Shown: positions 30,513-47,894 of the stretch, one piece after another
How positions within the stretch are numbered: the stretch's first letter is position 1
How the letters are laid out: each line of letters opens with the position of its first letter
Source of the DNA: Sphingorhabdus sp. EL138
Lineage (GTDB): Bacteria > Pseudomonadota > Alphaproteobacteria > Sphingomonadales > Sphingomonadaceae
Reading direction: 5' to 3'
Assembly: GCF_900258045.1 (NCBI RefSeq)
Contig: NZ_OGVD01000004.1
Span: 620,001 to 684,000 of the forward strand
Length of the DNA: 64,000 nucleotides
Notes under the pieces: model-generated
Seen by the model: the letters and a program-made list of their open reading frames with translations, nothing else
Told to the model about the DNA's origin: nothing
Databases searched by the model: none
Position numbers and translations under genes: made by a program

Positions 30513-30705
30513 AACTGGATCACTAAAAGCGCGAGAGCCTAGCATTCGACGTCGGTGTGTGGATTCTGCTAGTTGCCTCATATCCGGACAAAGTGGTCTG
30601 CTCTGTCGTCTAATATCCATTTTGACCAATAAAGACTGGGAAACGCAGTATTTTTTTGGCAGGATGATTTAAGGCCGGGTGGGTCTGGATTATTTGAGGG
30701 TTAAT

Positions 30706-32493: not shown

Positions 32494-32502
32494 GGAGCCG
32501 GA

Positions 32503-34848
32503 ATGGATGAATCGAAGGCAATAGCAAAGGCGGTACCTCTACTCACACAGGGGCCCAAACTATTTGTCATTGATGCCCGTAACCGGGTGGAGCGACGTCA
32601 TCTGCTGGATTGGCTTCATACGTCGCTGGCTGAAGGCGGTCCGGACCGGGAGATAAACTGGGTCAGCCTTCCAATATCCGATGAGCGCGCCCGATTGCGG
32701 TTGAAGGAGTTGGACCGAAAACTGGATGCTGATCCTGATACAATGGTGATACCTGTCCGTATTGCCTGGCGCATACCGAATTTCGAGAAGAGCCGGGCTC
32801 TCAAAAAACGGCATGCTCTTTTTGGCGATCCCCGGACGCCCGGCAGCTTTCGGGCTCGCATGATACTGGTCCGCAACAAGCGCCGCGCCCATTGCTTGAC
32901 TGGGCAACCGGCCACTATCGGCGAATTACGAGAGCGATTTGAACATCAAAATGCGCTGCATGCCGAGGGCGACGATGAGAATGAGTTTGCCGGATTTGTG
33001 GCGCGTCAGGCTGGTTTGGTTCTCGACATAGAAGAACGCGGCCTTCGTGGGCGACGGTATAAAGTACCCCGTTTTGTGGCTGATGGATTGCGCACCAGCT
33101 CAAAATTTCGTGCGGCTATGACAGAGCTCGCCACCGATCTGGATAAGCCGGAATCGGCTCTTTACGAAGAAGCCGGTAAGTATATGAAGGAGCTCATAGC
33201 CCGGCCCAGCGCCTTTTTCATCGATATGAAGGCCCGGCTGGATCGCTTCATGCTGTCGCAGGGCTATGAAGATGAAATCGTGTTTGACAAAAATGAGCTT
33301 GCGCGCCTGCGCAAGACGATGCGCGACCATCCCACCTTGCTGCTCTTCACACACAAAACCTATATTGATGGCGTGACGCCCACTGATCTGGCGTACCAAA
33401 ATGACTTGCCGATGGTGCATGTTTTTGGCGGGATTAATCTTGATTTCTTTGGGCTTGGGTTTGTCTTGCGACGCGCCGGCACGATTTTTATTCGCCGCAG
33501 CTTTGAAAATAACCCGGTCTACAAGCTCGTCCTCCGCCACTATGTCAGCTATTTATTGGAAAAGCGCTTCCCGATGACCTGGGCTTTTGAAGGTACGCGC
33601 TCGCGGCTCGGAAAGCTGATGCCGCCACGCTACGGCTTGCTCAAATATGTCATGGACAGCGCCAATCTGAATGACATTGAAAATGTCCATATCATCCCGG
33701 TCGTGACCAGTTTCGACTTGATTCGTGATGTCGAGGAATATGCGACCGAGCAAACAGGGCGGGTCAAAAAGGCAGAGTCGCTGAGCTGGTTTGTGGGTTA
33801 TCTACGTAGCCTGCGAGAACCTATGGGCAAGGTCTATGTGGATTTTGGCAAGCCGGTTGTTGTTGGCAATGCCCCGGAGCCTGATGATCGTATTGGGTTA
33901 TCCAAAATTGCCTTTGAAGTGGCAGTGGAGGCCAACCGGGCCACGCCGCTAACGCTGACTTCACTCATGTGCCTCAGTCTGCTGGGTACTGCCCCCCGCG
34001 CTATGACGGCCGATGAATTGCGCGCCGTGATTAACTTCTTCGTGGAATGGGCACAGGAACGCAATATCCGGTTCAGCGATGATCTGACCAGGCAAAATCT
34101 GGAAGGCATTCAAAGGGTTGTCGATACCTTGGTCAATAGTGGCCTGTTTGTGCGTTACGATCAGGGTTCGAGTACCGTCTACGCTATCCAGCCCGAAAAA
34201 CATCCACTGGCAAGCTATTATCGCAATTCAATCGTCCATCATTTCCTGGACAAGGCAATTATCGAAATGTCTTTGCTTAAGGCTAGGGAAGATAAGGATA
34301 AAGTTGCTGCGGACGTTTTTTGGGATGAAACAGACAGGTTACGAGACCTGTTTAAGTTTGAGTTTTTCTATCCACCGAAGGACGAATATCGCGAAAACCT
34401 CAAAGCAGAATTGACCCGTGCTTGCCCGGATTGGAAGATGAAGCTCGATCAGGGCGGCGTTATGCTCAAGAGTCTGACGAACCGGTTTCAACCGCTTATT
34501 GGTCACGCAGTGTTCTTGCCATTCGTGGAATCTTACACAGTAGTGCTAGATATATTGTCCCGGTTGGAGCCAGGGCAGGTCATTGACAAGAAGCATTGTG
34601 TCGAAGAGGCTCTGAAAGAGGGGCGGCAGGCATATTTGCTGCGGCGCATCACCAGCGAAGCGTCCATTGGCAAGATTCTGTTTGAAAATGGTTTTAAGAT
34701 GGCTGCCAGTCAGGATTTAACCGGCGAAACAACCGAAGAAACCATAGCGAAACGAAAGGCTTTGCTCCGCAAATTCCGAGCATTGTCGCGCCGAATGGAA
34801 AAATCGAGGCTTGAGGTGCTTAGCCTGGCTGACAAGATTTTTGACTAA
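32503..34848 (+). CDS. plsB: Glycerol-3-phosphate 1-O-acyltransferase
   Basis: 781 aa, the size of PlsB. It starts phospholipid and triacylglycerol synthesis by acylating sn-glycerol-3-phosphate. The acyltransferase motifs are present: HKTYID (H284, D289) in place of the usual HRSYMD, FVLRRAGTIFIRRSF, FEGTRSR (E363) and a downstream IIPVV segment. The C-terminal 300 residues are helical and soluble-looking as in E. coli PlsB. It follows the HAD-PlsC gene by 9 nt, so both acylation steps are probably co-expressed. Confidence 0.93.
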   Translation: MDESKAIAKAVPLLTQGPKLFVIDARNRVERRHLLDWLHTSLAEGGPDREINWVSLPISDERARLRLKELDRKLDADPDTMVIPVRIAWRIPNFEKSRALKKRHALFGDPRTPGSFRARMILVRNKRRAHCLTGQPATIGELRERFEHQNALHAEGDDENEFAGFVARQAGLVLDIEERGLRGRRYKVPRFVADGLRTSSKFRAAMTELATDLDKPESALYEEAGKYMKELIARPSAFFIDMKARLDRFMLSQGYEDEIVFDKNELARLRKTMRDHPTLLLFTHKTYIDGVTPTDLAYQNDLPMVHVFGGINLDFFGLGFVLRRAGTIFIRRSFENNPVYKLVLRHYVSYLLEKRFPMTWAFEGTRSRLGKLMPPRYGLLKYVMDSANLNDIENVHIIPVVTSFDLIRDVEEYATEQTGRVKKAESLSWFVGYLRSLREPMGKVYVDFGKPVVVGNAPEPDDRIGLSKIAFEVAVEANRATPLTLTSLMCLSLLGTAPRAMTADELRAVINFFVEWAQERNIRFSDDLTRQNLEGIQRVVDTLVNSGLFVRYDQGSSTVYAIQPEKHPLASYYRNSIVHHFLDKAIIEMSLLKAREDKDKVAADVFWDETDRLRDLFKFEFFYPPKDEYRENLKAELTRACPDWKMKLDQGGVMLKSLTNRFQPLIGHAVFLPFVESYTVVLDILSRLEPGQVIDKKHCVEEALKEGRQAYLLRRITSEASIGKILFENGFKMAASQDLTGETTEETIAKRKALLRKFRALSRRMEKSRLEVLSLADKIFD

Positions 34849-34874
34849 GATATTTAGGTTTAGAGGAACGATAT

Positions 34875-36413
34875 ATGTTGCATCAGCTTAGTGCCCAAGA
34901 CGCCCAGTTCCTTTATATCCAGACACCGGAAAATTTGACTCATGTTATGGCGGTCTACGTCTATGATCCATCGACTGTGCCTACCAAAAAGGTGCGATTT
35001 AAGGACATTATCGATCATGTCCGCAGTCGGCTTCATATATCCCCGGTATTCAAACGTAAGCTTTACCGGCTGCCTTTTGATATTGATCATCCCTATTGGG
35101 TAGAAGACCAGCATTTCGATATCGAAGCGCATATTTCCCATGGTCGATTGCCGGAGCCAGGCGATTGGCGGCAGTTTTGCATTCATGTGGCTCGCCATTT
35201 TAGCAAGCCGATGGATATGAACCGACCCCTGTGGGATATGTATGTCGTGGAAGGGCTCGATCGGGTCAAAGGCTATGGCAAGGGTAGCTATGCAATTTTG
35301 ACACGGGTGCACCATGCCGCGATTGACGGTGCCTCGGCTGCTTATTTTTTTACGGCGCTCAGCGACATGGATACAAAGGGGACACCGGCGATAGAAGTAC
35401 CGGCTTCGGATTGGGACTATGGTGATGTGCCGTCTTCGTCGGATGTCATGAACCGTGCCCTTTCCAGCAATCTGTCGTCACCCGTTAAGCTGGCCAACGC
35501 TGTATTAAAGCTAACTCCTACCCTTTGGGATGCAGCGCAGAAAAATATGTCCAGTGATGGGGGGGTGGGTGGACTCACTGTTCCCGAGACCCGGTTCAAC
35601 GGTGCAGTTTCACCGCACAAAATGTTCGATGCTGTCAGTTTCGATTTGAACGAGCTAAAGGCGATGCGGACCAAAGTGGAGGGTGCGACAATTAACGATG
35701 TCGTACTGACCATTTGTAGCGGCGCACTGCGTAAATATCTGATGAAACATAAGGAACTGCCAAAAGAAACGCTGGTGGGTGTAGCCCCGGTCAATGCACG
35801 AAAGCGGGATGGTCAGGAAAATACACCCGGTAACAAGATTACCGCGATGACAGTCAATCTGTGGACCAATATTGCCAATCCGCTGGAACGACTGGAAGCA
35901 GTGCGCAATACGACAAGGGAAACAAAAGCCGCCAAATCTGGTTTGAGTGCACGGATCATGACGGACCTTACCCAGCATATTCCCGGTGCGACTATGGCTG
36001 GCGTCGCCAAAATCCTAACCAGTGAGCGTTTCGCTCCCAAGATGAGCAACGTCTTCATTTCCAATGTGCCTGGACCGCAAATGCCGATGTATATGAACGG
36101 TGCGAAACTTACGCATCAATATGGCATGGCGCCGCTTGGTAATGGAATGGGCTTGTTTATCGCGACACCCAGCTACAATGGAACGATGTCCTTTGCGGTT
36201 ACAACCGACAGAAAAATCATGCCTGACATTGAATTTTTTCGCGAATGCGTTGAGGCCGCCTTTGTCCAACTGAGGGATGCAAAGCCAGCGGCGGGCAGAC
36301 GGAAGGCAAGGACCACGCCTGCCAAAAAGGCACCGCAACCCAAAGATGCTTCGGTCATGTATCGCCGGGTATCCAAGACGCCGAGACGAGCACCAAAGAA
36401 TAAGGTCAAATAA
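34875..36413 (+). CDS. Wax ester synthase / diacylglycerol acyltransferase (WS/DGAT)
   Basis: 512 aa. Bifunctional enzymes of this family esterify acyl-CoA with fatty alcohols or diacylglycerol to build storage lipids. The catalytic motif HHAAIDG (H146-H147, D151) is intact, with the N-terminal LHQLSAQDAQFLY opening and the late FISNVPGP motif. A short basic tail (last 45 residues, rich in Lys/Arg/Pro) recalls the tail two genes upstream. AGAGGA ribosome-binding site. 26 nt after plsB. Confidence 0.94.
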   Translation: MLHQLSAQDAQFLYIQTPENLTHVMAVYVYDPSTVPTKKVRFKDIIDHVRSRLHISPVFKRKLYRLPFDIDHPYWVEDQHFDIEAHISHGRLPEPGDWRQFCIHVARHFSKPMDMNRPLWDMYVVEGLDRVKGYGKGSYAILTRVHHAAIDGASAAYFFTALSDMDTKGTPAIEVPASDWDYGDVPSSSDVMNRALSSNLSSPVKLANAVLKLTPTLWDAAQKNMSSDGGVGGLTVPETRFNGAVSPHKMFDAVSFDLNELKAMRTKVEGATINDVVLTICSGALRKYLMKHKELPKETLVGVAPVNARKRDGQENTPGNKITAMTVNLWTNIANPLERLEAVRNTTRETKAAKSGLSARIMTDLTQHIPGATMAGVAKILTSERFAPKMSNVFISNVPGPQMPMYMNGAKLTHQYGMAPLGNGMGLFIATPSYNGTMSFAVTTDRKIMPDIEFFRECVEAAFVQLRDAKPAAGRRKARTTPAKKAPQPKDASVMYRRVSKTPRRAPKNKVK

Positions 36414-36436
36414 GTAGTGGATAACTACCTAATTTT

Positions 36437-36455
36437 CCCGTTAACGGGTGTTTTT
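36437..36455 (+). terminator. Weak terminator-like stem before the patatin gene
   Basis: A CCCG-TTAA-CGGG tetraloop hairpin (36437-36448) followed by TGTTTTT. The four-base-pair stem is short, so termination would be weak; the island could still be read through into the patatin gene. Confidence 0.35.
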
Positions 36456-36499
36456 CCTCAGCAATGCGTGTATTCGGTCTGACAGTAAGCGAGTAAATT

Positions 36500-37978
36500 A
36501 TGATTTTGAATACAACTTTGAAGATGGAAAAGGCGATGGCCCAAGCGGAAAATTATTCCGACTGGTCTGATGCCGCAGCCGCCCACGATCGCTCCACTGG
36601 CGTCGACAAGTGGAAGGCCTCTGACGATAGCAAGCATTTTGATAATGCCTCTATTCGCAGACGTTTGAAACGCCTGTCAAAGCTTTGGAAAGCCCAGGAT
36701 AATGCGGGCCTGCTTTATGCACTGAATGAAGGTATCCACGGCAATATGGATGGTATGGGCAATGACCGCCTGCACCAAAAAGCCAAATTTGGCACCAAGC
36801 AACTGATTCAGGATTATGTGGATGCCATTGTCAATTCGCTGGAATATCTGGCGAGTGATAAGGTTGATGATATTCCCTTTGAAGAGAAACTCGATTTCTT
36901 TCGTCGGGCGCAACATTGCTACGGTCGCTCTGCCTTTTTAATGAGCGGCTCAGGCGCCTTTCTGTATTTCCATATGGGCGTGGTGAAAGCTTTGTGGTCG
37001 GAAGGGCTATTGCCGCACATCATGTCGGGTTCCAGTGGCGGTTCTATCGTTGGCGCTTTGATCAGCACGCATGTGGATCATGAGATTCCCCCATTTTTTG
37101 AACCCGAAAACCTAGTCACTGAAGGCAGTGATGAAATAGCCTCGCAGACCGGGTTGAGCATATTCGGTGGCACAAGGCGCCTGAAAATAGATGAGATCCG
37201 AGAGCGTATCAGCAATATGATCCCGGATCTGACGTTTCAGGAGGCTTATGAACTGACCGGGCGGCATTTGAATGTTTCGATCGCTCCAGCGGAGAAGCAC
37301 CAAACATCACGCCTTTTGAACGCTATTGCGTCACCCAATGTCTATATACGGGAAGCAGTTATGGCTTCTTGCGCCGTACCGGGCGTTTATCCTCCTGTGA
37401 CATTGGCAGCCAAGGATCACAAAGGAGAACGTAAACCTTATCTGCCCAATCGCAAATGGGTTGACGGTTCTGTAACCCATGACTTGCCGGCAAAACGGTT
37501 GGGGCGGCTTTATGGGGTTAATCACCATATTGTCAGTCAAGCAAATCCGCTAATCACGCCCTTTGCGACTGATGTGAAGCAGCAGAGGACTCCGATTTCC
37601 GCGATCCGGAACGCAACGACTTCGACGATGAAGGCTTGGCTCAACGCCAATGTCGAAATTATGCAGAAGCCGCTATCCTATTTTCCGCGACTGAACAGCA
37701 TGGCCAATATGACACTATCCGTCATTAATCAGGACTATACAGGCGATATCAACATCATCCGTCCGACGATGTTCTGGAGCCCGGCAAAAATACTAAGCGA
37801 TTTGTCGGTGGAAGAAATTAGTGAGCTGATACAACTTGGCGAGCGGACGACTTGGCCGAAAATTGAAATGGTGCGAACCCAGACCAAAATCAGCCAGACA
37901 TTGGACCGCATATTGTTTGAATATGAAAATGAACTGGCCCATGATCACGAACTTGTGATGAAAAGGAAAATCGCTTGA
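36500..37978 (+). CDS. Patatin-like phospholipase / triacylglycerol lipase with DUF3336
   Basis: 492 aa. The N-terminal about 150 residues match the DUF3336 domain found in TAG lipases of the yeast Tgl3/4/5 type and bacterial relatives (KASDDSKHFDNASIRRRLKRL is in this part). The patatin core follows: glycine-rich oxyanion loop MSGSGAFLYFHMGV, nucleophile S179 in GSSGGS, and D322 in WVDGSVTHDLP completing the Ser-Asp dyad. Probably hydrolyses storage triacylglycerols or phospholipids. Several ATGs lie within the first 13 codons; the first is reported. Confidence 0.92.
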   Translation: MILNTTLKMEKAMAQAENYSDWSDAAAAHDRSTGVDKWKASDDSKHFDNASIRRRLKRLSKLWKAQDNAGLLYALNEGIHGNMDGMGNDRLHQKAKFGTKQLIQDYVDAIVNSLEYLASDKVDDIPFEEKLDFFRRAQHCYGRSAFLMSGSGAFLYFHMGVVKALWSEGLLPHIMSGSSGGSIVGALISTHVDHEIPPFFEPENLVTEGSDEIASQTGLSIFGGTRRLKIDEIRERISNMIPDLTFQEAYELTGRHLNVSIAPAEKHQTSRLLNAIASPNVYIREAVMASCAVPGVYPPVTLAAKDHKGERKPYLPNRKWVDGSVTHDLPAKRLGRLYGVNHHIVSQANPLITPFATDVKQQRTPISAIRNATTSTMKAWLNANVEIMQKPLSYFPRLNSMANMTLSVINQDYTGDINIIRPTMFWSPAKILSDLSVEEISELIQLGERTTWPKIEMVRTQTKISQTLDRILFEYENELAHDHELVMKRKIA

Positions 37979-38829
37979 GGCATGAAGAGGCGAGTTTGAC
38001 CCTGGTCGCGCCATCGGCGGCCGCGGGTGCATCGCTTTATTGCCAAAGCTGGACGCCGGAAACTGCTACGAAAGCGGTCATTATATTGGTTCATGGCTAT
38101 GATGAACATAGCGGGCGATACGGATATTTCGCGGATCATTGCACTAAACACGGATTTGCCGTTCAAACCCTTGATCATTGGGGACATGGAAGGTCAGACG
38201 GAGCAAATGGTTTCGTCCCTGACTTTTCAGTTTATCATGATGGTTTGGATAGCCTGATCAAACAATTGCCTGCGGAACAAAAAGGCCTTCCACTGATATT
38301 GGTTGGACATAGTTTGGGCGGTTTAATTGGTGCGACCTACCTGCTCAAAAATCCGTCTCGTTTCACGGCAGCGGTGTTGTCTGGTCCAGCGATTAAAGCG
38401 ACGGAAGAGCCTTCTGCAGTCATGAAAGGGCTCAGCAAACTTCTCTCGAAATTGGCGCCCACAATGGGCGTTTTGGCATTGGATGCGAATGGAGTCAGCC
38501 GCGATCCGAAGGTTGTCGCGGATTATTTGGCCGATCCGTTGGTCTCCGGTACCAAGATCAGTGCCCGGCTGGCAGCTGAAATGATGGCTAATATGGAATT
38601 GGTGCAAAGCCACGCTGCCAAAATAACATTACCGATCTTGCTGTTGCACGGTGGAAAAGACAGCCTGACAGCACCCGAAGGGTCGATGTTTCTCAATGAG
38701 AATATTGGCTCCGGCGAAAAAATGTTGAAAATCTATCCGGAACTTTTTCACGAGATTTTTAATGAACCGGAAAAAGATGCGGTGCTGACGGATATGACTG
38801 ACTGGATGGATCGCATATTGACAAAATAG
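37975..38829 (+). CDS. Alpha/beta hydrolase, monoacylglycerol lipase-like
   Basis: 284 aa from a TTG at 37975, whose TTGA overlaps the patatin stop; an AAGGA box lies 6-8 nt upstream inside the patatin gene. No ATG is available before the conserved core. A second TTG at 37996 is an alternative. The alpha/beta hydrolase features are HGYDEHSGRYGYFAD (serine aminopeptidase S33/MGL type), DHWGHGRSDG, nucleophile S113 in GHSLGG, LHGGKDSLTAPEG and the catalytic histidine in LFHEIFNEPE. Likely completes acylglycerol breakdown started by the patatin. Confidence 0.9.
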   Translation: MRHEEASLTLVAPSAAAGASLYCQSWTPETATKAVIILVHGYDEHSGRYGYFADHCTKHGFAVQTLDHWGHGRSDGANGFVPDFSVYHDGLDSLIKQLPAEQKGLPLILVGHSLGGLIGATYLLKNPSRFTAAVLSGPAIKATEEPSAVMKGLSKLLSKLAPTMGVLALDANGVSRDPKVVADYLADPLVSGTKISARLAAEMMANMELVQSHAAKITLPILLLHGGKDSLTAPEGSMFLNENIGSGEKMLKIYPELFHEIFNEPEKDAVLTDMTDWMDRILTK

Positions 38830-38860
38830 CGACCAGAAGTGCGAACGGGGGAATTTCGCA

Positions 38861-39790
38861 ATGATGATCATTCTATATATTTTATGCACCATAATAATGG
38901 CGGTGTTGATCGCCTATTTCGTGTTTCCGAAGGCGCTTTATGATCTCATGACCGCTTCGCTGCGCCTCCGGGGAGGAATGCGCCAAAAATTCATCAAAGT
39001 CGGTGACAATGTCTGGCCGTATCTGGAAGGTGGACGAGGGGAGGGTGTGCCACTCGTTTTGTTGCATGGTTTTGGTGGTGACAAGGATAACTGGTCAATT
39101 TACGCACCGCATATCACCAAGGATCATCGTTTGATTGCACCGGACCTGCCAGGCTTTGGTGAGAACAACCGATCTCTGGATCGTGACTATGATATCGTCT
39201 CACAGGTCCATCGATTGAGTGCGTTCCTGGACGCTATCAATGTCCCCAAATGTCATATCGGCGGCAATAGCATGGGCGGATTTATCGCTTTGCAATTTGC
39301 AATGGAATATCCGGACAAAGTTGCATCATTGACCTTGTTTAACAATGCTGGCGTCATGGGCGACGTGAAGAGCGAATTGGCAATTGCGGCAGAAAAAGGT
39401 GAAAATTCCCTGGCGCTGAGCGACGTCTCCGATGTTGATCGGCTAATGGCTTTTGTTTCTTATAAACCAGTGCCGATGCCAAAGAACTTCAAGAAAATAT
39501 TCTTTGCAGAGGCCGAAGCCCATAGAGAAGTTCTCGACAAAGTATTCTGGCAAATTGCCGGTGCCGGTATCAATCATCCTCTCAATGATCGCCTCGGCGA
39601 GGTAGTGGCGCCAAGCCTGATCATCTGGGGGCGCCATGATCGGTTGATTGATGTTAGCTGTGTTGCGGTGCTGGATGCAGGTATCAAGGATAGTGAAGCG
39701 GTTATTTTCGAAGAGACCGGGCATATTCCGATGATCGAGAGACCCAAAGAGACTGCTACTGTGCACCGGGCATTTCTTGCAAAACACTAA
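38861..39790 (+). CDS. Membrane-anchored alpha/beta hydrolase (lipase/esterase)
   Basis: 309 aa. An N-terminal hydrophobic anchor (residues 2-24) precedes an alpha/beta hydrolase core: HGFGGDKDNWS, DLPGFGENNRS, nucleophile S137 in GNSMGGFIAL, the aspartate in WGRHDRLID, and the histidine in ETGHIPMIERP. The HGFGGDKDNW pattern is shared with Moraxella/Pseudomonas lipases. Probably acts at the inner-membrane face on acyl esters. 31 nt after the previous hydrolase. Confidence 0.88.
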   Translation: MMIILYILCTIIMAVLIAYFVFPKALYDLMTASLRLRGGMRQKFIKVGDNVWPYLEGGRGEGVPLVLLHGFGGDKDNWSIYAPHITKDHRLIAPDLPGFGENNRSLDRDYDIVSQVHRLSAFLDAINVPKCHIGGNSMGGFIALQFAMEYPDKVASLTLFNNAGVMGDVKSELAIAAEKGENSLALSDVSDVDRLMAFVSYKPVPMPKNFKKIFFAEAEAHREVLDKVFWQIAGAGINHPLNDRLGEVVAPSLIIWGRHDRLIDVSCVAVLDAGIKDSEAVIFEETGHIPMIERPKETATVHRAFLAKH

Positions 39791-39858
39791 ATTTCCAGCC
39801 AGTTTAGCGACATAGAACTCCTCAAGAGGGGAGTCGCAGTAAAATTTGGGGAAAAGCT

Positions 39859-40860
39859 ATGAAATTGCGCGTCGGGCTATTGGGTGGAGGGTCCTGGGGG
39901 ACAACCGTGGCATCACTGGTTTCGCGCAATGCCCCGATCAAGATATGGGCCCGAGACAGCGACACTGTCGACGATATTAATAACAATCACCGAAACAGCA
40001 AATATTTGCCTGATGCCGCGTTGCCGGAAGCACTGGAAGCCACGGGCGATATCGGTGAGGCTGTCTCTGACGCTGACGTACTCGTTATGGGAATTCCGTC
40101 CAGCAATTTCCGCAATGTGCTAGAAGAAGCCAAATCCTATTTGCGACCATGGGTTCCTGTCATCAGCCTGACAAAGGGTTTGGAGCTCTCCACTGGCAAA
40201 CGTATGACTGAAGTCATCGAAGATGTTTTACCTGGCCATCCTGTTGGGGTCCTGACCGGACCCAATCTGGCGCGGGAAATCATGGCCGGGCAGGCGGCCG
40301 CCAGCGTGATCTCAATGGAAGACGAGATTATCGTCAAGCAACTCCAGCAGCTTTTCCACTCCGGAATGTTTCGTGTCTATACCAATACCGATTTGCTGGG
40401 CTGCGAGTTGGGCGGAGTCCTGAAGAATATCATCGCCATTGCCGTTGGCATGGGGGATGGATTAGGGGCAGGGGACAATACTCGATCCGCTCTGATCACT
40501 CGCGGTTTGGCAGAGATTACGCGATTAGGAGTGGCTATGGGTGGCCGACCCGAGACTTTTGCCGGCCTGACGGGAATGGGGGATATGATCGCCACGTGCA
40601 CGAGCCCGTTGAGCCGAAACCGGCATGTCGGTGTCGAGCTGGGCAAGGGGCGCAAAATTGATGATATTATCGAAGAAATGCTGATGGTTGCTGAAGGTGT
40701 CAAAAGTGCGCCGACGGTCATGGCTTTGGCCAAAAAGTATAGTGTTGCAATGCCGATTGCAGAAGACGTGTTTGAAGTAACAAAAGGAACGCGTTCGGCT
40801 GTCCGTGCTTATCGCGGTCTGATCAGTGCATCTGCAGGCTCAGAGGCTGATGCCGGATAG
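39859..40860 (+). CDS. gpsA: Glycerol-3-phosphate dehydrogenase [NAD(P)+]
   Basis: 333 aa. Makes sn-glycerol-3-phosphate from dihydroxyacetone phosphate, feeding PlsB encoded in the same island. Nucleotide site GGGSWGTTVAS, then LTGPNLAREI, the catalytic lysine in LGGVLKNIIAIAVG and substrate-binding GDNTRSALITRGL and TGMGDMIATCTS. A GGGG-rich box precedes the ATG. This is the last gene of the plus-strand lipid run. Confidence 0.96.
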   Translation: MKLRVGLLGGGSWGTTVASLVSRNAPIKIWARDSDTVDDINNNHRNSKYLPDAALPEALEATGDIGEAVSDADVLVMGIPSSNFRNVLEEAKSYLRPWVPVISLTKGLELSTGKRMTEVIEDVLPGHPVGVLTGPNLAREIMAGQAAASVISMEDEIIVKQLQQLFHSGMFRVYTNTDLLGCELGGVLKNIIAIAVGMGDGLGAGDNTRSALITRGLAEITRLGVAMGGRPETFAGLTGMGDMIATCTSPLSRNRHVGVELGKGRKIDDIIEEMLMVAEGVKSAPTVMALAKKYSVAMPIAEDVFEVTKGTRSAVRAYRGLISASAGSEADAG

Positions 40861-41125: not shown

Positions 41126-41151
41126 GCCCCGATTATGTGGAGAGTATGTAT

Positions 41152-42105
41152 ATGGATTTACGAAGCCAAGCCGTAAACGATGCTGAGACTGATCTCGTAT
41201 TCGACGCGACAGAAACACTGATCACACCGCACCGTGGTCTTGGCTATGATATATTCAAACAGAACTTCAATGAAATTGATTTGCGGTTCGACAAAACGGA
41301 TGAAATTTTCTGGTGCTATATGAACCAGAAATCTCGCCCCAGCTACACATATGAATTGGGCGATGAAATCCAGATGGTCCAAGACTGGATTCATACAAAT
41401 TATGCCATGGATGGAACCCATACCGAGGACCCAATGCGCTATTTTGTTTGTGGATCGCGTACCCCTGGCATTTACAATCTCGGCGGCGACCTGAAACATT
41501 TTGCGGACTGTATTCGGCGTCGCGACTTGGGTGCTTTAAAGAAATACGCCCGTACCTGCGTGCATATGCAATATGCGAACAGCACAGGTTTTGGCGCCCC
41601 AATTATTACCATGGCTTTGGTGCAGGGTGATGCGTTGGGCGGCGGTTTTGAACATGCTTTGGCTTTTGACATTCTGGTGGCCGAGAGAAGTGCAAGGCTG
41701 GGCCTGCCCGAAATTTTATTCAATCTCTTCCCCGGTATGGGTGCCTACAGTTATTTACGTCAGCGTCTCGGCCGCAAAGAGACAGAACAGTTTATTCTCG
41801 AAGGAAAATTATTCACAGCCGAACAGCTCTATGAGATGGGCGTGATTGATATCCTCGCGGAGGACGGTAAGGGCGAGCAAGCCATTATTGAATATACCAA
41901 GCAAAACCGGAAGCGGTTCCACGCTGAACGTGCTGTCTACAAAGCGCGTCGCCTCGCCAATCCCGTAACGATCGATGAATTGCTCGAAATTACGGAGATG
42001 TGGGCAGAAACGGCACTTTACCTTGATGAAGTCGATGTAAGAAAAATGGAGCGCCTTGCGAATGCGCAAGAGCGTCGAATTGCCCGCTCGCTCAAGACTG
42101 TTTAG
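41152..42105 (+). CDS. rpfF: RpfF-like crotonase, probable DSF-family fatty-acid signal synthase
   Basis: 317 aa from ATG 41152, chosen because GGAGAG lies 7 nt upstream; GTG 41137 and ATG 41146 are too close to that box. RpfF proteins hydrolyse and dehydrate 3-hydroxyacyl-ACP to cis-2-unsaturated acids (DSF). The two catalytic glutamates are present, E167 in GGGFEHAL and E187 in LPEILF, with the same 20-residue spacing as E141/E161 of Xanthomonas RpfF, and the flanking ALVQGDALGGGFE and LFPGMGAYSYL are RpfF-specific rather than general enoyl-CoA hydratase sequence. The N-terminal extension and the C-terminal helices also fit. Convergent with the kinase operon, 8 nt apart; the upstream neighbour is gpsA. 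rpfB is not here. Confidence 0.88.
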   Translation: MDLRSQAVNDAETDLVFDATETLITPHRGLGYDIFKQNFNEIDLRFDKTDEIFWCYMNQKSRPSYTYELGDEIQMVQDWIHTNYAMDGTHTEDPMRYFVCGSRTPGIYNLGGDLKHFADCIRRRDLGALKKYARTCVHMQYANSTGFGAPIITMALVQGDALGGGFEHALAFDILVAERSARLGLPEILFNLFPGMGAYSYLRQRLGRKETEQFILEGKLFTAEQLYEMGVIDILAEDGKGEQAIIEYTKQNRKRFHAERAVYKARRLANPVTIDELLEITEMWAETALYLDEVDVRKMERLANAQERRIARSLKTV

Positions 42106-42113
42106 CTACAAGC

Positions 42114-44696
42114 TTAGCCTGCTGCGCTATACCCATTATCGGTCTTGCCGTCTTCAGCCATTTCCGGACCGTTCAAGAAAGCTTTGATGAGTGACACTTC
42201 TAGTTCGACTTGTACGAGATATTCAAATCGCTTTTGCGTGAACTCTGATTCCGTTATGATTTCCAGGTGGCTGCAGATTTGAGATAATTTTTTTGCGCCG
42301 ACATTGTTGGCACCGCTCTTAAAAGCGTGAGCATGGAAACGAAAATCTTCTACCTTGCCGTCTTCAACCGACTTTTTGAAGGCTCTCATAATGTCCGACG
42401 CGTCTTCAACATATGCATCTATGATTGACTGAACGAACGCCTCGTCGCCTATGGATTTCAAATAATCCATCTGCCCCGCGTCAATTGGTGGTTGAGGGTC
42501 ATCTGTCAACTCTGATCCGATGACTTGAACAACATTAAATGGATCATGACGCAGCGATTCTTGCACTTCATTTGCCTTATGGAAATTGCCTGTCTGTTCT
42601 GCAACGGTGTCAAGCAAAACGCTTGCTTCTATTGGTTTTGTGAGCCGTAAATCCATGCCGGCATCAAGGCATTTTTTCTCTGTTTCTGACGTGGAATCCG
42701 CTGTCAGGCCAATAATCGGAATATGGTGGCGAGGCCCTTCGATCTGACGCCATAGCTTGCAGCATTCTATGCCACCAATATTTGGCATGTTGACGTCGAG
42801 AAATACTATGTCGAAAGAATATTGCTCAAGTTCATCAAGAGCTTGCTCACCGTCGGAAACAACAACTACTTCATGGCCAGCATTTATAAGGATCGTTTGC
42901 AAGACCATCTGGTTGGTACGATTATCATCAGCAACCAATATTTTGAGCGAAGCAGATGTTCGAATGATACGGTTAGGATTGTCTTCCAGTTTCTTGCCGG
43001 TGCGATTGAAAGAACAGCCAATTTGAACAACGCTGCGCACAGTATCAAAGTCCGCAGATGCTGGTAGCACTGATGCGAAAGCGGCCCGTAATTTGATCTC
43101 GTCTAGGCTCTTGCTGCCACTTTTAGAGAGCAGGACAGGTGGCAGTTTGGCCTCACGAAAATGACTCCAGAATATGGAGTCATCTCTGTGTTGCTCTGCG
43201 ATTTCTTCATCGAGAAGAGCCATGTCGTATGAAGAAAGCGGGCGGTTTTTGAGGATCGATTCCAAGCGGTCATTTGGGGCACATTGAATATGCTCAATGA
43301 CAACAGATCCTTCGTCCTCTTGCTCAATGTCCGGGCCGTTCAGACCAAATCCCAACGACAATATTCGATAGCTTTCGGGATTGGGAACAACCTCGACGTC
43401 GACGACCGGTTCAACTGGGCAAGCAAGGGTAAACGTGCTGCCCTTTCCCACAGTACTCTCCAACGCAATATCGCCGCCCATCTGGATCGCCAGTTGCTTA
43501 CAGATAGCAAGGCCCAAACCCGTGCCGCCAAAGTTATCAATAATACTGTCATCTGCTTGCTGGAAAACGCCAAATATTTTCTCATGTGCTTCGGCTGGTA
43601 TGCCCGGCCCAGTATCGGTTACAGAGCACCATAACACTGGAGCTTCGGAGACATCATCATCTATTCCGCACTTCAATGTTATTGTACCCGTTTCGGTGAA
43701 CTTCACAGCGTTGCTGGTCAGGTTGATCAGGATATTGCGGATATGATCGAGTTGCCCCGTAACAGCTTGATCGCTCAGAGCTTCGGCTTCGAGGTGAATT
43801 TTCAAACCTTTTTCGGCCGCCGCCAACTGCAAGATGTCACGCACATCTGTGAGCACATCGACGATACTGAATTCCTTCGGTTCCGGCAGTTCTTCCTGTG
43901 TATCCGATCTTGCAAAGGTCAATAGCTGGTTGATCAGATGTAACAGATGCTGACCGGCGGATACGCTGGTACTCACCATCTGTTGTTGTGCTTCAGGCAG
44001 TTTCATGTCGAGCAGATGTGTGCCGTACCCGATAATGGCATTTAGCGGTGTACGCAATTCATGGCTTATGCTCGCTAAAAACAGGCTCTTCGCCTTGTTT
44101 GCGCTTTCAGCTTCTTTCGTTGCCTTGGATATTTTGATAATCAGGGTCGAACAATATGCAGGAACGACGATCAAACCACCCAAGAGGCCTAAAGACAGGG
44201 ATAAATTGTGATGCCAATAGGGCACGGAATATATGGTCCAACCGAATGACATTGTTCCTAGCGCAGCCGCGATACCGAGCCATTTGATACCAAAGCGGAA
44301 GCCATAGCCTAATATCACCCACAGATATAATGGGTAGAGCGCAGCAACTGCTCCGCCGCCAATTTCAAACAAATAGGTCGACACACCGAAGTCAACCACC
44401 AAGCCCGCCAATCGTCGACTGTTGCTTGGCCCAGGCTTTAAGCGATAAGCGATAAAGATCGCCAGGCTGCCTAAAAGGTGCAGTTGAAAGCCAAGCATCA
44501 GGTCTGCATTCCCGTCAAGGAAATAGGTGACGGTTAGCGCGATCACGATCAAAACCAGTCGGTTTATGATCATCTCTCTCTCGCGATCACGACCCCGCTC
44601 GGTAGCGTCGCTGTGATGTGAGTGACGATGATGATGAGCGTGTCTGTGCGTATTATGCTGCTTCGTGGAGCGCTTGCTTTGCAAGAAAGGTAGCAT
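42114..44696 (-). CDS. RpfC-like hybrid sensor histidine kinase (5TM-HisKA-HATPase-REC-Hpt)
   Basis: 860 aa from ATG 44696, 4 nt after the upstream stop with a GAAGGA box. A His-rich cytoplasmic start (nine His in residues 14-28) precedes about five membrane helices (residues 41-190) with the RpfC-type LWVILGYGFRFG loop. Then HisKA with H212 in SHELRTPLN, HATPase_c (DTGPGIP near 360, GTGLGLAI), a degenerate receiver-like stretch, a true receiver with D634 in FLDVNMP, and Hpt with H790 in HAFKSGANN. The layout matches Xanthomonas RpfC, the DSF receptor. Partner genes: rpfF-like (convergent) and the REC-GGDEF-EAL gene (same operon). Confidence 0.88.
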   Translation of the reverse strand: MLPFLQSKRSTKQHNTHRHAHHHRHSHHSDATERGRDREREMIINRLVLIVIALTVTYFLDGNADLMLGFQLHLLGSLAIFIAYRLKPGPSNSRRLAGLVVDFGVSTYLFEIGGGAVAALYPLYLWVILGYGFRFGIKWLGIAAALGTMSFGWTIYSVPYWHHNLSLSLGLLGGLIVVPAYCSTLIIKISKATKEAESANKAKSLFLASISHELRTPLNAIIGYGTHLLDMKLPEAQQQMVSTSVSAGQHLLHLINQLLTFARSDTQEELPEPKEFSIVDVLTDVRDILQLAAAEKGLKIHLEAEALSDQAVTGQLDHIRNILINLTSNAVKFTETGTITLKCGIDDDVSEAPVLWCSVTDTGPGIPAEAHEKIFGVFQQADDSIIDNFGGTGLGLAICKQLAIQMGGDIALESTVGKGSTFTLACPVEPVVDVEVVPNPESYRILSLGFGLNGPDIEQEDEGSVVIEHIQCAPNDRLESILKNRPLSSYDMALLDEEIAEQHRDDSIFWSHFREAKLPPVLLSKSGSKSLDEIKLRAAFASVLPASADFDTVRSVVQIGCSFNRTGKKLEDNPNRIIRTSASLKILVADDNRTNQMVLQTILINAGHEVVVVSDGEQALDELEQYSFDIVFLDVNMPNIGGIECCKLWRQIEGPRHHIPIIGLTADSTSETEKKCLDAGMDLRLTKPIEASVLLDTVAEQTGNFHKANEVQESLRHDPFNVVQVIGSELTDDPQPPIDAGQMDYLKSIGDEAFVQSIIDAYVEDASDIMRAFKKSVEDGKVEDFRFHAHAFKSGANNVGAKKLSQICSHLEIITESEFTQKRFEYLVQVELEVSLIKAFLNGPEMAEDGKTDNGYSAAG

Positions 44697-44700
44697 GCCG

Positions 44701-46857
44701 CTATCCTTCCGCCGAACCGGTAACTTGTTGCCGTTGTACTCCGAACAATTTCGACAAGTCTGTCGCACGCTGTGGACGCGCTATTTTGAAGCCTTGAATC
44801 TCGTCACATCCTGACGCTTGGAGGAGTTCAAGCTGGGCATCATTTTCGACGCCCTCAGCTATAACCCGCATATCCAACGCGTGAGCGAGATGGGAAATTG
44901 TACCGATAATCGCACGGTCTGCTGCAGAATGTTCAATCCGCGATATGAAAGTACGGTCAATCTTCAAACAATTGGCTGGCAAATCTCTTAGATATTGTAG
45001 CGAGGAATAGCCGGTTCCAAAGTCATCTATCGAAATTCCGACCCCAACCTCACGCAATCTGATTAAAGAATCGCTGACATGATCATTATTATTCAGCAGC
45101 AATTCTTCGGTAATCTCAATCACAATCTTCGAAGGATCAATCTGGTTCAACTCAATGTTCTTCAACACTTCTTCGCAGATTTTCTGATTCTGAAACTGAC
45201 GCGGGGATACATTGATAGCAACACGCGGAAGATCAACACCTTCATCCGCTGATCGCCTTATTTGGCTGCATACTTCGGCTATTACCCATTTGCCGACGGA
45301 GTCCATTATTCCCGTATCGTCTGCAACGCGAATAAACTGCACCGGCAGCAGGCGTCCACGCGTTGGATGATCCCAGCGGAGTAGTGCTTCCAAACCTACA
45401 TATTCTAATGTTTTGGCATCGACTATTGGTTGATATTCAAGTGCGAACTGATCCTGACTTAAGGCATCACGCAATTCAATCTCGAGCGATGCATCTGCCT
45501 GGGCAATCTGGTTCATGCCCTCAGAGAAGAAACGATGACAGTTGCGGCCATTCGCTTTCGCATCGTACATCGCGAGGTCAGCGAGCCTCAGCAATTCTTC
45601 ATATTCGTCGCCATCATTCGGAATCAAGCTAACGCCGATACTGGCTCCGATGACCTGCTCGATTCCGCTGATGGAGTACGGCTCATTAATTGCTTTCAGT
45701 ATTTTTGTGCAGCGGGAGTTGATCGCATCAGGTCCGCTGACTTTACCAAGAATAATGGCGAATTCATCACCGCCAATACGTGCCGCGAAATCGTCCGGTC
45801 CGATAATATCGAGCAACCGTTCTGCAACTTCCCGCAGCAATGTATCACCGCTGTGGTGGCCGCGTGTATCATTGATGACTTTGAACCGGTCGAGATCCAG
45901 CAGCAGTAGAGCTGATTCCTGACCGGTCTTTTGACAGGTGTCGATTGTTTTGCGTACTTTTTCCGCCAGCAGCGCACGATTGGGCAGCCCGGTCAGCATG
46001 TCGTGCAAGGCCAGATGCGTGCGATGTTCTTCGGCAAACTTGCGAGCCGTGATGTCGACCGCAGTGGTCAATACACCGATTGTCTCACCCTTATGATTCA
46101 GCAGCGGAGACTTGTTGCAGTGAAAAATAAGCTCAACGCCATCGCTGGAGAATTTTTCCTCATAATGTGGGATCGGTTGTTCCGACTTCAGCACTATCTC
46201 GTTTCTGCGATTTGAATTTGTTGCTAGGCCAGGGCCCAGTATTTCGCCAAAATCTCGGCCGACCATCTCGTCAGGTGTTTTGTCAAAAAGTGCCGATTGA
46301 TAGGCATTAGTGAACAAGCAGCGACCGGCCCGATCGGTGGCATTGATCATGATGGGTATTGTATCGATGATCTGTTCCAGCATACTCTTGTTTGCTGGTG
46401 CGTTACTATCCGGTAAATCGGAAAGTGCGGCATGTTTCCTTTCGATTTCAGACGCCCGTTTTCTAAGATTATCGCTTTTTTGGCTTTTTGTCAGAAGCGA
46501 TGTCGCGCGCCGGCAAAATTCCACATGCGATACCGGGCTCTGCAGAAAATCAGTGGCACCGGCATCCAGCGCGGAAAGTCGGCATTCGCGGTCCTGATGA
46601 GCGGTTATCACGATTGCTGGCACATCACCACATTTAGACATTTTGCGGACTTTTTTGATGAACTCTGCGCCGTTCATCTGAGGCATTCTGTAGTCAACAA
46701 CCAACAGCTCTGCGTTGTTGCTATTTAGCCATTCAAGCGCTTCCAATGGATCAGCAAATGTGACGGAGGAATATTCTTCCCCCATCATGGTCACAAACTG
46801 GGCATAAATCCTGAGATTTGTAGGCCGGTCATCGACGATTAGAACGCGCGTGGTCAT
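44701..46857 (-). CDS. Response regulator with PAS, GGDEF and EAL domains (c-di-GMP turnover)
   Basis: 718 aa from ATG 46857 (a TTG at 46884 is less likely). Domains: receiver 4-118 with D55 in VVDYRMP; PAS about 160-275; GGDEF 278-440 with GGDEF at 362-366; EAL 455-700 with EALLRW at 490. All main EAL residues look intact (NVSPRQF, EITEE, DDFGTGYSS, KIDRTFI, EGVEN, QGF). The product-inhibition I-site RxxD is GPDD (353-356), so it is lost. The receiver has SP instead of the conserved KP at its late lysine position. It could make or degrade c-di-GMP. It takes the place of RpfG next to an RpfC-like kinase. Confidence 0.93.
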   Translation of the reverse strand: MTTRVLIVDDRPTNLRIYAQFVTMMGEEYSSVTFADPLEALEWLNSNNAELLVVDYRMPQMNGAEFIKKVRKMSKCGDVPAIVITAHQDRECRLSALDAGATDFLQSPVSHVEFCRRATSLLTKSQKSDNLRKRASEIERKHAALSDLPDSNAPANKSMLEQIIDTIPIMINATDRAGRCLFTNAYQSALFDKTPDEMVGRDFGEILGPGLATNSNRRNEIVLKSEQPIPHYEEKFSSDGVELIFHCNKSPLLNHKGETIGVLTTAVDITARKFAEEHRTHLALHDMLTGLPNRALLAEKVRKTIDTCQKTGQESALLLLDLDRFKVINDTRGHHSGDTLLREVAERLLDIIGPDDFAARIGGDEFAIILGKVSGPDAINSRCTKILKAINEPYSISGIEQVIGASIGVSLIPNDGDEYEELLRLADLAMYDAKANGRNCHRFFSEGMNQIAQADASLEIELRDALSQDQFALEYQPIVDAKTLEYVGLEALLRWDHPTRGRLLPVQFIRVADDTGIMDSVGKWVIAEVCSQIRRSADEGVDLPRVAINVSPRQFQNQKICEEVLKNIELNQIDPSKIVIEITEELLLNNNDHVSDSLIRLREVGVGISIDDFGTGYSSLQYLRDLPANCLKIDRTFISRIEHSAADRAIIGTISHLAHALDMRVIAEGVENDAQLELLQASGCDEIQGFKIARPQRATDLSKLFGVQRQQVTGSAEG

Positions 46858-47312
46858 ATAGTCGCAATAAGAGGCGATAATCAAAATAAGGTTAACGCGT
46901 CATTGGTATTGTATCGGGTTGTATCTTTGTTGGCCAACCTTTGGAAATCGGCCAAAAATTGTGTTTTTTGAGTACAGAGTCGAGTTTACCCTCGGCTCGC
47001 GCAGTGGTTCTGCGAATGATCATCTTTGTCCAGAGGGAGTAAAGAATGAAGAAAATCACCCTTAAGTCCGGCAAATCACGTTTTTTTTTGGGAGATATTG
47101 CTTTTAAGCGACCAGATGCGAATATTTTGTCCCCAATTCTATCTTACCTGATTTCAAAGCAGGTTGCGCCTGACATTGGATTGAACCATTTTGGTTGTGA
47201 TGCTTCTTGCCACCGGAACTCCAATTCAGCATTGCGATCACAAGGTTAAAACAAGAACAATGATGTTCATCATTGTAAGATATATCCGCAGCTGTTGTTC
47301 AAGGGGGAAATA
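46858..47312. other. 455-nt divergent intergenic region
   Basis: AT-rich gap between the divergent starts of the REC-GGDEF-EAL operon (minus) and the possible DNA-binding protein gene (plus). It must contain promoters for both directions, but I cannot place -35/-10 boxes reliably. It includes a possible 67-codon ORF (listed separately) and a T9 run near 47084. Confidence 0.6.
47046..47249 (+). CDS. Hypothetical small basic protein
   Basis: 67 aa, starting at ATG 47046 with a good AGGGAG box 7 nt upstream. The sequence is basic at the N-terminus (MKKITLKSGKSRFFLGD) with no recognisable domain, and it contains three cysteine/histidine residues late (GCDASCH). It may be a real small gene or a leader peptide for the next gene, or chance. 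No family recognised. Confidence 0.3.
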   Translation: MKKITLKSGKSRFFLGDIAFKRPDANILSPILSYLISKQVAPDIGLNHFGCDASCHRNSNSALRSQG

Positions 47313-47894
47313 GTGGAATTTACCTATGCCGAGATACTGGATATCTTATCCACCAAACATAATGTTGCCAGCGCCAAAAAAGTGGCCTTTCGTGGGCGAT
47401 TGCAACATTTTCAACGACTTGGATTTCCTGCAGGTGCTAATACCGGAAAAGGTAAGGGGGTTGCCTATTCATGGCGTGAGCTTTTCTTGATTGGTTTGGC
47501 ATTGGATTGCCTGGAAATCGGATCCACACCAGATCGAAGTGTAAACGAAATTGTGAAATTTGAAGACGTTTTCTTGTCGGCAATTGCCGGTGTTGGGCTG
47601 GGTGCTCAGGAAGAGGATAGCCGGGACTTTAAATGTTTCCTGATTGTTGAATTGTCTAACCTTATGTCTTTAAAAGAAGAAGCCGACTGGAGCCAGATCG
47701 TAAAACTGCTGTCTCATCAGGATATGATGCAAATCCTGTCCAGCGACGGCTTGGATGCCCATCGTTCTCCTTATGCGTTGATTGATTTGCGTCAGTTCCT
47801 CGCCGCCATTCTAAACGGTGTGTTTAACTGCCTTGAGGCGCCCAAAAAAGAGATTATCGGTGATTTTAAAGCTTGGGCGAGGCAGCAACTATAA
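47313..47894 (+). CDS. Unrecognised protein with a possible MerR-like N-terminal DNA-binding region
   Basis: 193 aa from GTG 47313, preferred because AAGGGGGA lies 5 nt upstream; a TTG at 47295 is possible. The first about 70 residues (EFTYAEILDILSTKHN, FRGRLQHFQRLGFP, YSWRELFLIGLALDCLEIG) resemble a winged helix of the MerR type, where a helix-turn-helix is followed by a regulator-like helix. The remaining 120 residues are helical and match nothing I know. It sits divergently from the c-di-GMP/kinase operon, so control of that operon is an attractive but unproven idea. Confidence 0.65.
   Translation: MEFTYAEILDILSTKHNVASAKKVAFRGRLQHFQRLGFPAGANTGKGKGVAYSWRELFLIGLALDCLEIGSTPDRSVNEIVKFEDVFLSAIAGVGLGAQEEDSRDFKCFLIVELSNLMSLKEEADWSQIVKLLSHQDMMQILSSDGLDAHRSPYALIDLRQFLAAILNGVFNCLEAPKKEIIGDFKAWARQQL

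Follow-up and report, generated by a model that had tools for sequence, protein, structure and literature searches.

The window analysed here is a stretch of 64,000 nt from Sphingorhabdus sp. EL138 (contig NZ_OGVD01000004.1, positions 620,001–684,000), and its subject is a three-gene locus at positions 41152–46857 of that stretch, coding for an RpfF-type crotonase, an RpfC-like hybrid histidine kinase and a REC-PAS-GGDEF-EAL response regulator. We interpret this locus, with a probability of about 0.6, as an alphaproteobacterial variant of the rpf circuit of Xanthomonas in which the output of the regulator has been exchanged; the three genes probably make and sense a fatty-acid signal passed from cell to cell.

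The crotonase gene (41152–42105, plus strand, 317 aa; an alternative GTG start is possible at 41137) is convergent to the kinase gene (42114–44696, minus strand, 860 aa), with an unstranded gap of 8 nt (42106–42113) between them, and the regulator gene (44701–46857, minus strand, 718 aa) occupies the place of rpfG. The regulator comes first on the minus strand and its end (44701) is 4 nt from the ATG of the kinase (44696); because only 4 nt separate the pair, both genes look like one operon. These open reading frame (ORF) coordinates match the layout described in an earlier, sequence-only reading of the window. Pfam assigned ECH_1 to the crotonase, HisKA, HATPase_c, REC and Hpt to the kinase, and REC, PAS_4, GGDEF and EAL to the regulator, which, together with the alignment of the kinase input domain to those from rpfG loci, bears out the naming of the latter two proteins in that reading.

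The three genes and their recurrence

Comparisons of sequences and structures indicate that the crotonase is an RpfF-type synthase, as had been proposed. It scores 350 bits on the NCBIfam model PRK08788 (cut-off 177), and its closest solved structures in the PDB are 7zq7 and RpfF entries, 3m6m among them. A quick tree of 91 crotonases took in 87 of 151 RpfFs; two hydratases of the host genome, L002 and L004, were excluded because their ORFs were not clean. The tree grouped the protein from the window with 86 RpfF-type sequences and split it with a support of 99 from four of the host's hydratases, the tool flagging long branches, hydratases included; on this split, an ordinary enoyl-CoA hydratase was rejected. 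Both catalytic glutamates are present: Glu167 occurs in all 151 RpfF rows and Glu187 in 142 of them, with Asp in the other nine; the catalytic pair of RpfF from X. campestris is given as E141/E161 (PMC9040811). The host genome contains a single RpfF-type gene, the next crotonase scoring 48 bits versus 723.

A scan of named genomes retrieved 46 loci, 38 of them from sphingomonads (Parasphingorhabdus, Sphingorhabdus, Novosphingopyxis and unclassified relatives); the query consisted of peptides from the RpfF of the window and the scan is therefore biased to close kin. Domain mapping showed that rpfF, kinase and regulator are arranged alike in 35 of the 38 sphingomonad loci, the other three (L108, L115 and L127) stopping at contig ends; among the 35, the regulator of L112 overruns its contig and the kinase of L124 is split into two frames. 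In every sphingomonad locus holding all three genes (35/35), rpfF is convergent to the kinase-regulator pair, and the recurrence in 35 of 38 loci rules out that these are chance neighbours.

The frequency of this type of locus was estimated from two further samples. Of 296 Sphingomonadales genomes drawn evenly, 60 have RpfF, and the loci of these comprised five of this type, four with an RpfF fusion next to a REC-PAS-kinase, 12 with rpfF convergent to a receiver-less GGDEF-EAL protein and 39 with no signalling gene nearby, defined as no match to domain queries derived from the window within 5.5 kb, so that remote domains may escape. The three-gene set is thus uncommon in Sphingomonadales, as had been anticipated (5 of 296 genomes, sampled by RpfF). 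In a draw of 398 genomes across the phylum, 62 had RpfF, and this type accounts for four of the 44 whose loci were examined: G000 and G071, from the family of the window, and L143 (f28) and L147 (f21), which place the set in two other alphaproteobacterial families. In the trees of RpfF and of the kinase, L143 and L147 are set off from their sphingomonad counterparts. The neighbourhood is consequently kept in relatives, within the sphingomonads and in these two families.

The kinase has the architecture of RpfC, with a membrane input domain followed by HisKA, HATPase, REC and Hpt, and is likewise convergent to rpfF. Its phosphorelay residues are H212 in HisKA, D634 in REC and H790 in Hpt, and its REC domain is matched by that of X. 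campestris RpfC (3m6m_D) at 2e-22; H790, as well as D55 of the regulator, had been named correctly as residues. The input domain (residues 1–196; 44109–44696, minus strand) is 20–33% identical to 11 of those from rpfG loci, and an alignment of 52 out of 55 such proteins (L104, L112 and L156 excluded) contains ten invariant positions, including E39, R46, W126, R134 and W161. AlphaFold2 modelled it as an all-helical bundle (pLDDT 88). Fold searches with the model retrieved other multi-helix membrane anchors, such as ImcA (8wcn; Z 14.6, root-mean-square deviation [rmsd] 3.2 over 166 residues) and adenylyl cyclase AC9 (9u3q; Z 12.8, rmsd 3.4 over 167), with scores close to those that helical bundles can reach simply through a similar arrangement of helices; no RpfC membrane structure was among the matches listed.

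Receiver and output of the regulator

By its sequence, the receiver of the regulator (46513–46845, minus strand; D55) belongs to the rpf-linked clade that includes RpfG. When it was used as query against the 398 genomes, the best 30 places were five REC-PAS-GGDEF-EAL proteins, 18 REC-HD-GYP proteins (77–105 bits) and seven receivers on something else (80–97 bits); other receivers of its own genome reached at most 48.7 bits. In a tree of 78 receivers, from whose RpfG rows the near-copy L163 was omitted, that of the window falls in one clade (99/97) with all 14 rpf-linked RpfG receivers put in; the clade also holds 14 REC-PAS-GGDEF-EAL receivers, the window included, and four from REC-PAS-histidine kinases. 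Outside it lie ten receivers from RpfC, 17 from the genome of the window and ten from HD-GYP proteins for which the 3.4 kb examined contained no RpfC input domain. As for a separate RpfG elsewhere in this genome, the sole HD_5 match has no receiver match in its frame, and this candidate was discarded.

The output of the regulator is PAS-GGDEF-EAL and not the HD-GYP of RpfG, and the rpf receiver is found on HD-GYP, PAS-GGDEF-EAL or PAS-HisKA-HATPase. The output therefore looks swappable, because a related lineage bears the same receiver on a PAS-histidine kinase, and HD-GYP would have come first and been exchanged later, since the nearest outside receivers are mostly HD-GYP (18 of the 25 top-scoring ones that lack this architecture). 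The GGDEF domain (45541–46011, minus strand) has an intact catalytic motif and lacks the I-site, reading GPDD; the EAL domain (44773–45477, minus strand) has intact conserved motifs. D55 is present in all 42 rows with letters at that position, and the GGDEF residues and the EAL motif residues tested in all 43, the I-site RxxD occurring in five of the 43 (L060, L133, L143, L147 and L247). Because the motif residues of both domains are conserved, both activities on cyclic di-GMP (c-di-GMP) are possible from sequence, and the regulator is possibly a two-way c-di-GMP controller.

The PAS domain (46039–46383, minus strand) bears on the proposal, made in the sequence-only reading, that the locus joins both known branches of signalling by the diffusible signal factor (DSF). 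According to this explanation, which we consider improbable, an RpfR protein would have gained a receiver, and its PAS domain would bind DSF directly. The order of domains after the receiver is indeed that of RpfR, and the domain is a PAS_4, to which the DSF-binding domain of RpfS also belongs (PMC4504480). It was modelled as an ordinary PAS fold (pLDDT 82), and the fold search retrieved RpfR with BDSF (6dgj; Z 12.5, rmsd 2.9 over 101 aligned residues), although at rank 17, the best match being DvhD (9rc0; Z 15.0, rmsd 1.6 over 112); the RpfR PAS entries, with Z 12.5–12.6, lie amid many similarly scoring PAS domains of many kinds. A sequence search against the PDB gave only weak matches for this domain (best E 0.0069).

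The RpfR ligand residues tested are S168, N171, R186 and N201, in Burkholderia cenocepacia numbering (PMC6361424), and were located by profile alignment to six RpfR PAS domains, with counts over 41 of 42 rows (L112 excluded). The window has S, R, E and N at these positions, respectively, and thus keeps two of the four, Ser168 and Asn201. Asn is frequent at position 201 (33/41 rows; 33/34 among the sphingomonad rows); on the other side, Ser occurs at 168 in just 13 of 41 rows, the window among them, Asn never occurs at 171 (0/41; Arg in 34, with Asn in 24 rows at the next column), and the Arg of position 186 is likewise absent (0/41), being replaced with Glu in 39. Moreover, Pfam did not find in the regulator the N-terminal FI domain with which RpfR binds RpfF, the receiver sitting at that end, and a quick tree did not join its GGDEF-EAL part to RpfR with support. 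Direct sensing of DSF in the manner of RpfR is hence unlikely, because FI is absent and Glu takes the place of the ligand Arg in 39 of the 41 rows, and an RpfR fused to a receiver was rejected on the GGDEF-EAL tree and the PAS ligand residues. With the receiver in the RpfG clade, the joining of both branches and the direct sensing by PAS are the two parts of the sequence-only reading that the data do not support. The same quick tree does not resolve the origin of the output, and this architecture falls in two places in it, L143 and L147 again lying apart from the sphingomonad rows.

The proposed circuit and the evidence against it

As an rpf circuit of Xanthomonas type with an exchanged output, the locus would work as follows. 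RpfF, as its family suggests, would turn 3-hydroxyacyl-ACP (acyl carrier protein) into a free 2-unsaturated fatty acid, and the N-terminal membrane edge of the RpfC-like kinase would be the place where this acid, or one close to it, is sensed. The kinase would then autophosphorylate at H212 and relay the phosphoryl group via D634 and H790 to D55 of the regulator, all of which are observed as residues. Phosphorylation of D55 would set the balance between the two intact c-di-GMP sites, most likely towards more hydrolysis by EAL and so less c-di-GMP at high signal, as with RpfG; of these steps, the direction of the output is the least secure, because the regulator has both cyclase and hydrolase sites. 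The PAS domain would probably contribute another cue or transmit the signal, and not bind DSF as in RpfR.

Several observations weigh against this circuit, those on the docking motif among them. Mutation mapping in X. campestris showed that R15, D17, S18, E19 and Q22 of the RpfC N-terminus are essential to DSF sensing, with Thr as the sole substitution tolerated at S18 (PMC5391125). The corresponding motif of the window, RDREREMIINR (kinase residues 36–46; 44559–44591, minus strand), in which E39 equals E19 and M42 equals Q22, does not have this set of residues: Asp and Glu are kept, S18 is replaced with R and Q22 with M. Position 22 is Gln in all 15 RpfG-type loci and never in the 42 loci of the new type, which have Met in 26 cases, Ile in 14, and Thr and Val in one each. 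Ser or Thr occupies position 18 in 11 of the 15 RpfG-type loci, versus 1 of 42. The Glu of position 19 is constant in both groups (42/42 and 15/15) and, with the Arg that follows, invariant over the 52 input-domain rows. Among 20 kinases without an assigned regulator, 18 have Gln at position 22, the two exceptions (L115, Met; L127, a gap) being loci from the clade of the window cut by contig ends; kinases adjoining the REC-PAS-kinase type retain it as well (2/2). The difference at Gln22 takes just two changes on the kinase tree, from which L124 was excluded as too short, and the association between docking motif and output consequently rests on few events, because the rows are related and two changes suffice. 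Since a residue essential for DSF sensing in X. campestris is replaced, the signal may not be DSF, and either the ligand or the way it docks is probably not as in Xanthomonas.

Other points against the circuit come from the distribution of the genes and from their trees. The crotonase scores 218.8 bits on the RpfF equivalog model NF053515, under its cut-off of 550. The RpfR-linked RpfF of B. cenocepacia, at 188.2 bits, fails as well and a Xanthomonas-type RpfF (L161) passes with 580.2; because the former fails, this cut-off is not decisive for membership in RpfF, and it seems to mark the Xanthomonas type. The receiver trees conflict, a smaller one nesting the new type within RpfG (97/88) and the 78-row tree setting it beside, and the rpf receiver clade of the latter also includes L250 (G624), a REC-PAS-GGDEF-EAL protein on a long branch, for which the 6 kb examined contained no rpf gene. 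The 42 loci of this type belong mostly to one clade. Genome G481 (locus L247), from a fourth family (f9), has the kinase and the regulator, with crotonases at hydratase level only (best 45.5 bits); its kinase has Met at position 22 and retains Ser18, and this strain is possibly a listener for the signal of other bacteria.

An explanation that accommodates part of these data, and that we regard as unlikely, is that the kinase senses a cue not made by RpfF, such as another lipid, a metal through a His-rich tail or the state of the membrane, the genes being linked without forming one loop. The lack of Gln at position 22 in 42 of 42 loci, with Ser at position 18 in a single one, agrees with it, as does G481, which has the pair without RpfF. 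So does the N-terminal tail itself (kinase residues 14–28, nine of them His; 44613–44657, minus strand), which has similar counterparts in the subclade of the window: in the 50 residues preceding the docking motif there are 4–13 His in readable members of this Parasphingorhabdus-type subclade and 0–2 in the sister subclade, except for L122 with four scattered (L101 and the masked L104, unreadable, were excluded). The tail possibly serves in metal or pH sensing. The convergence of rpfF to the pair in all 35 complete sphingomonad loci and the invariance of Glu at position 19 speak against a cue unrelated to RpfF.

A gene cluster for storage lipids adjoins the locus. The run at 30679–40860 (plus strand), upstream of rpfF, comprises genes for a HAD-acyltransferase, a glycerol-3-phosphate acyltransferase, a wax ester synthase/DGAT (WS/DGAT), a DUF3336-patatin and two alpha/beta hydrolases, followed by what is presumably gpsA; the last five genes were traced and recur in the Parasphingorhabdus-type subclade. 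The crotonase might thus serve lipid metabolism, as an acyl-ACP thioesterase or hydratase within this cluster, and not signalling, an explanation to which we assign a small probability. In that subclade rpfF is on the same strand as, and downstream of, the genes for WS/DGAT, patatin, two hydrolases and gpsA, and RpfF does have thioesterase activity (PMC4504480). In addition, RpfF-type genes are often alone, as in the 39 of 60 Sphingomonadales loci mentioned above, which also counts against the circuit; because many such genes lack signalling neighbours, an rpfF-type gene alone is no proof of signalling. Against a role in lipid metabolism, no match to lipid genes was found beside rpfF in the Sphingorhabdus/Novosphingopyxis subclade, within the stretches examined, or in L143 and L147, and kinase and regulator are present.

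Returning to the rpf circuit with an exchanged output, its scope could be wider than the locus in the window. We tentatively suggest, at somewhat less than even odds, that the RpfG receiver is a socket for varied alphaproteobacterial outputs replacing HD-GYP, and that the version with PAS-GGDEF-EAL pairs with a rebuilt docking motif in the kinase. If true, these bacteria would use a different fatty-acid signal, and a c-di-GMP enzyme acting in both directions and controlled by phosphorelay would read it. The difference at the position of X. campestris Gln22 also offers a testable prediction on how this kinase family discriminates fatty acids.

Known systems and other rpfF layouts

A review distinguishes two core designs of DSF perception, RpfC-RpfG, with HD-GYP, and RpfR, with PAS-GGDEF-EAL (PMC4504480). 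RpfC appears with RpfG, besides RpfR, in that review and in a paper on Leptospirillum (PMC8357829), and with RpfG in surveys of two-component quorum sensing (PMC8895600) and of acidophiles (PMC9040811). Among the matches listed from the open full-text literature, none described RpfF and RpfC together with a regulator of PAS-GGDEF-EAL type, and no open paper on DSF in Sphingorhabdus or Sphingopyxis was found, Parasphingorhabdus not having been searched by name. The locus would represent a conserved third layout that keeps the wiring of RpfC-RpfG with a different enzyme as output, the quorum-sensing output being exchanged on a single receiver and both synthase and sensor retained.

With rpfF/rpfC-rpfG from Xanthomonas it shares the convergence of rpfF to a kinase-regulator operon, the architecture of RpfC, the receiver clade and an output on c-di-GMP; it differs in having PAS-GGDEF-EAL for HD-GYP, changed docking positions S18 and Q22, and no rpfH-like or rpfB-like gene among the neighbours examined. 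RpfF is also convergent to a PAS-GGDEF-EAL protein in the RpfF-RpfR systems of Burkholderia and Cronobacter, whereas here there is a receiver instead of FI, a Glu at the ligand Arg of PAS and a membrane kinase in between. Leptospirillum likewise has linked rpfF, rpfC and rpfG outside the Xanthomonadaceae, although its cluster is described as running in one direction and its RpfG as HD-GYP (PMC8357829). RpfS from X. campestris has a PAS of the same PAS_4 class, but is a soluble histidine kinase for which the passages concerned in PMC4504480 name no receiver or c-di-GMP domain.

Other combinations around rpfF were seen during the comparisons. It is convergent to a GGDEF-EAL protein in L045, L065, L067–L072, L075, L076, L083, L086 and L184–L186; Pfam found neither PAS nor receiver in the three of these partners tested (L065, L067 and L068), and some of the N-termini appear hydrophobic. 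The facing of rpfF and a receiver-less GGDEF-EAL gene is possibly a further, direct-sensor layout. In 18 loci of family f43 (L144, L145, L148, L149, L151, L153, L154 and L171–L181) the gene convergent to rpfF codes for an RpfC-like kinase; no RpfG was seen linked to the two, some of the contigs being short, and L176 and L179 have a lone receiver. In L157 (G593), rpfF is followed on the same strand by a receiver-less PAS-GGDEF-EAL gene, with a kinase and a receiver protein beyond.

In L062 (8820–10886, plus strand), L064 (7519–9411, minus strand), L063 and L066, from Sphingomonadales families f2, f6 and f7, RpfF continues at its C-terminus into a Haem_oxygenas_2 domain (PF14518, ‘iron-containing redox enzyme’); the closest solved chain to this domain is 3dde (1.8e-14). 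The four fusions adjoin a REC-PAS-histidine kinase (4/4) and, in the two whose contig reaches far enough, an RpfC-like kinase too, and the RpfF product may be further oxidised to another signal in these loci. An unfused gene of the Haem_oxygenas_2 class lies directly upstream of rpfF in G532 (L166).

Divergent from the regulator gene of the window there is an ORF of 199 aa (47295–47894, plus strand), which gave no match in Pfam and NCBIfam and has matches in six close loci (L097–L100, L104 and L131).

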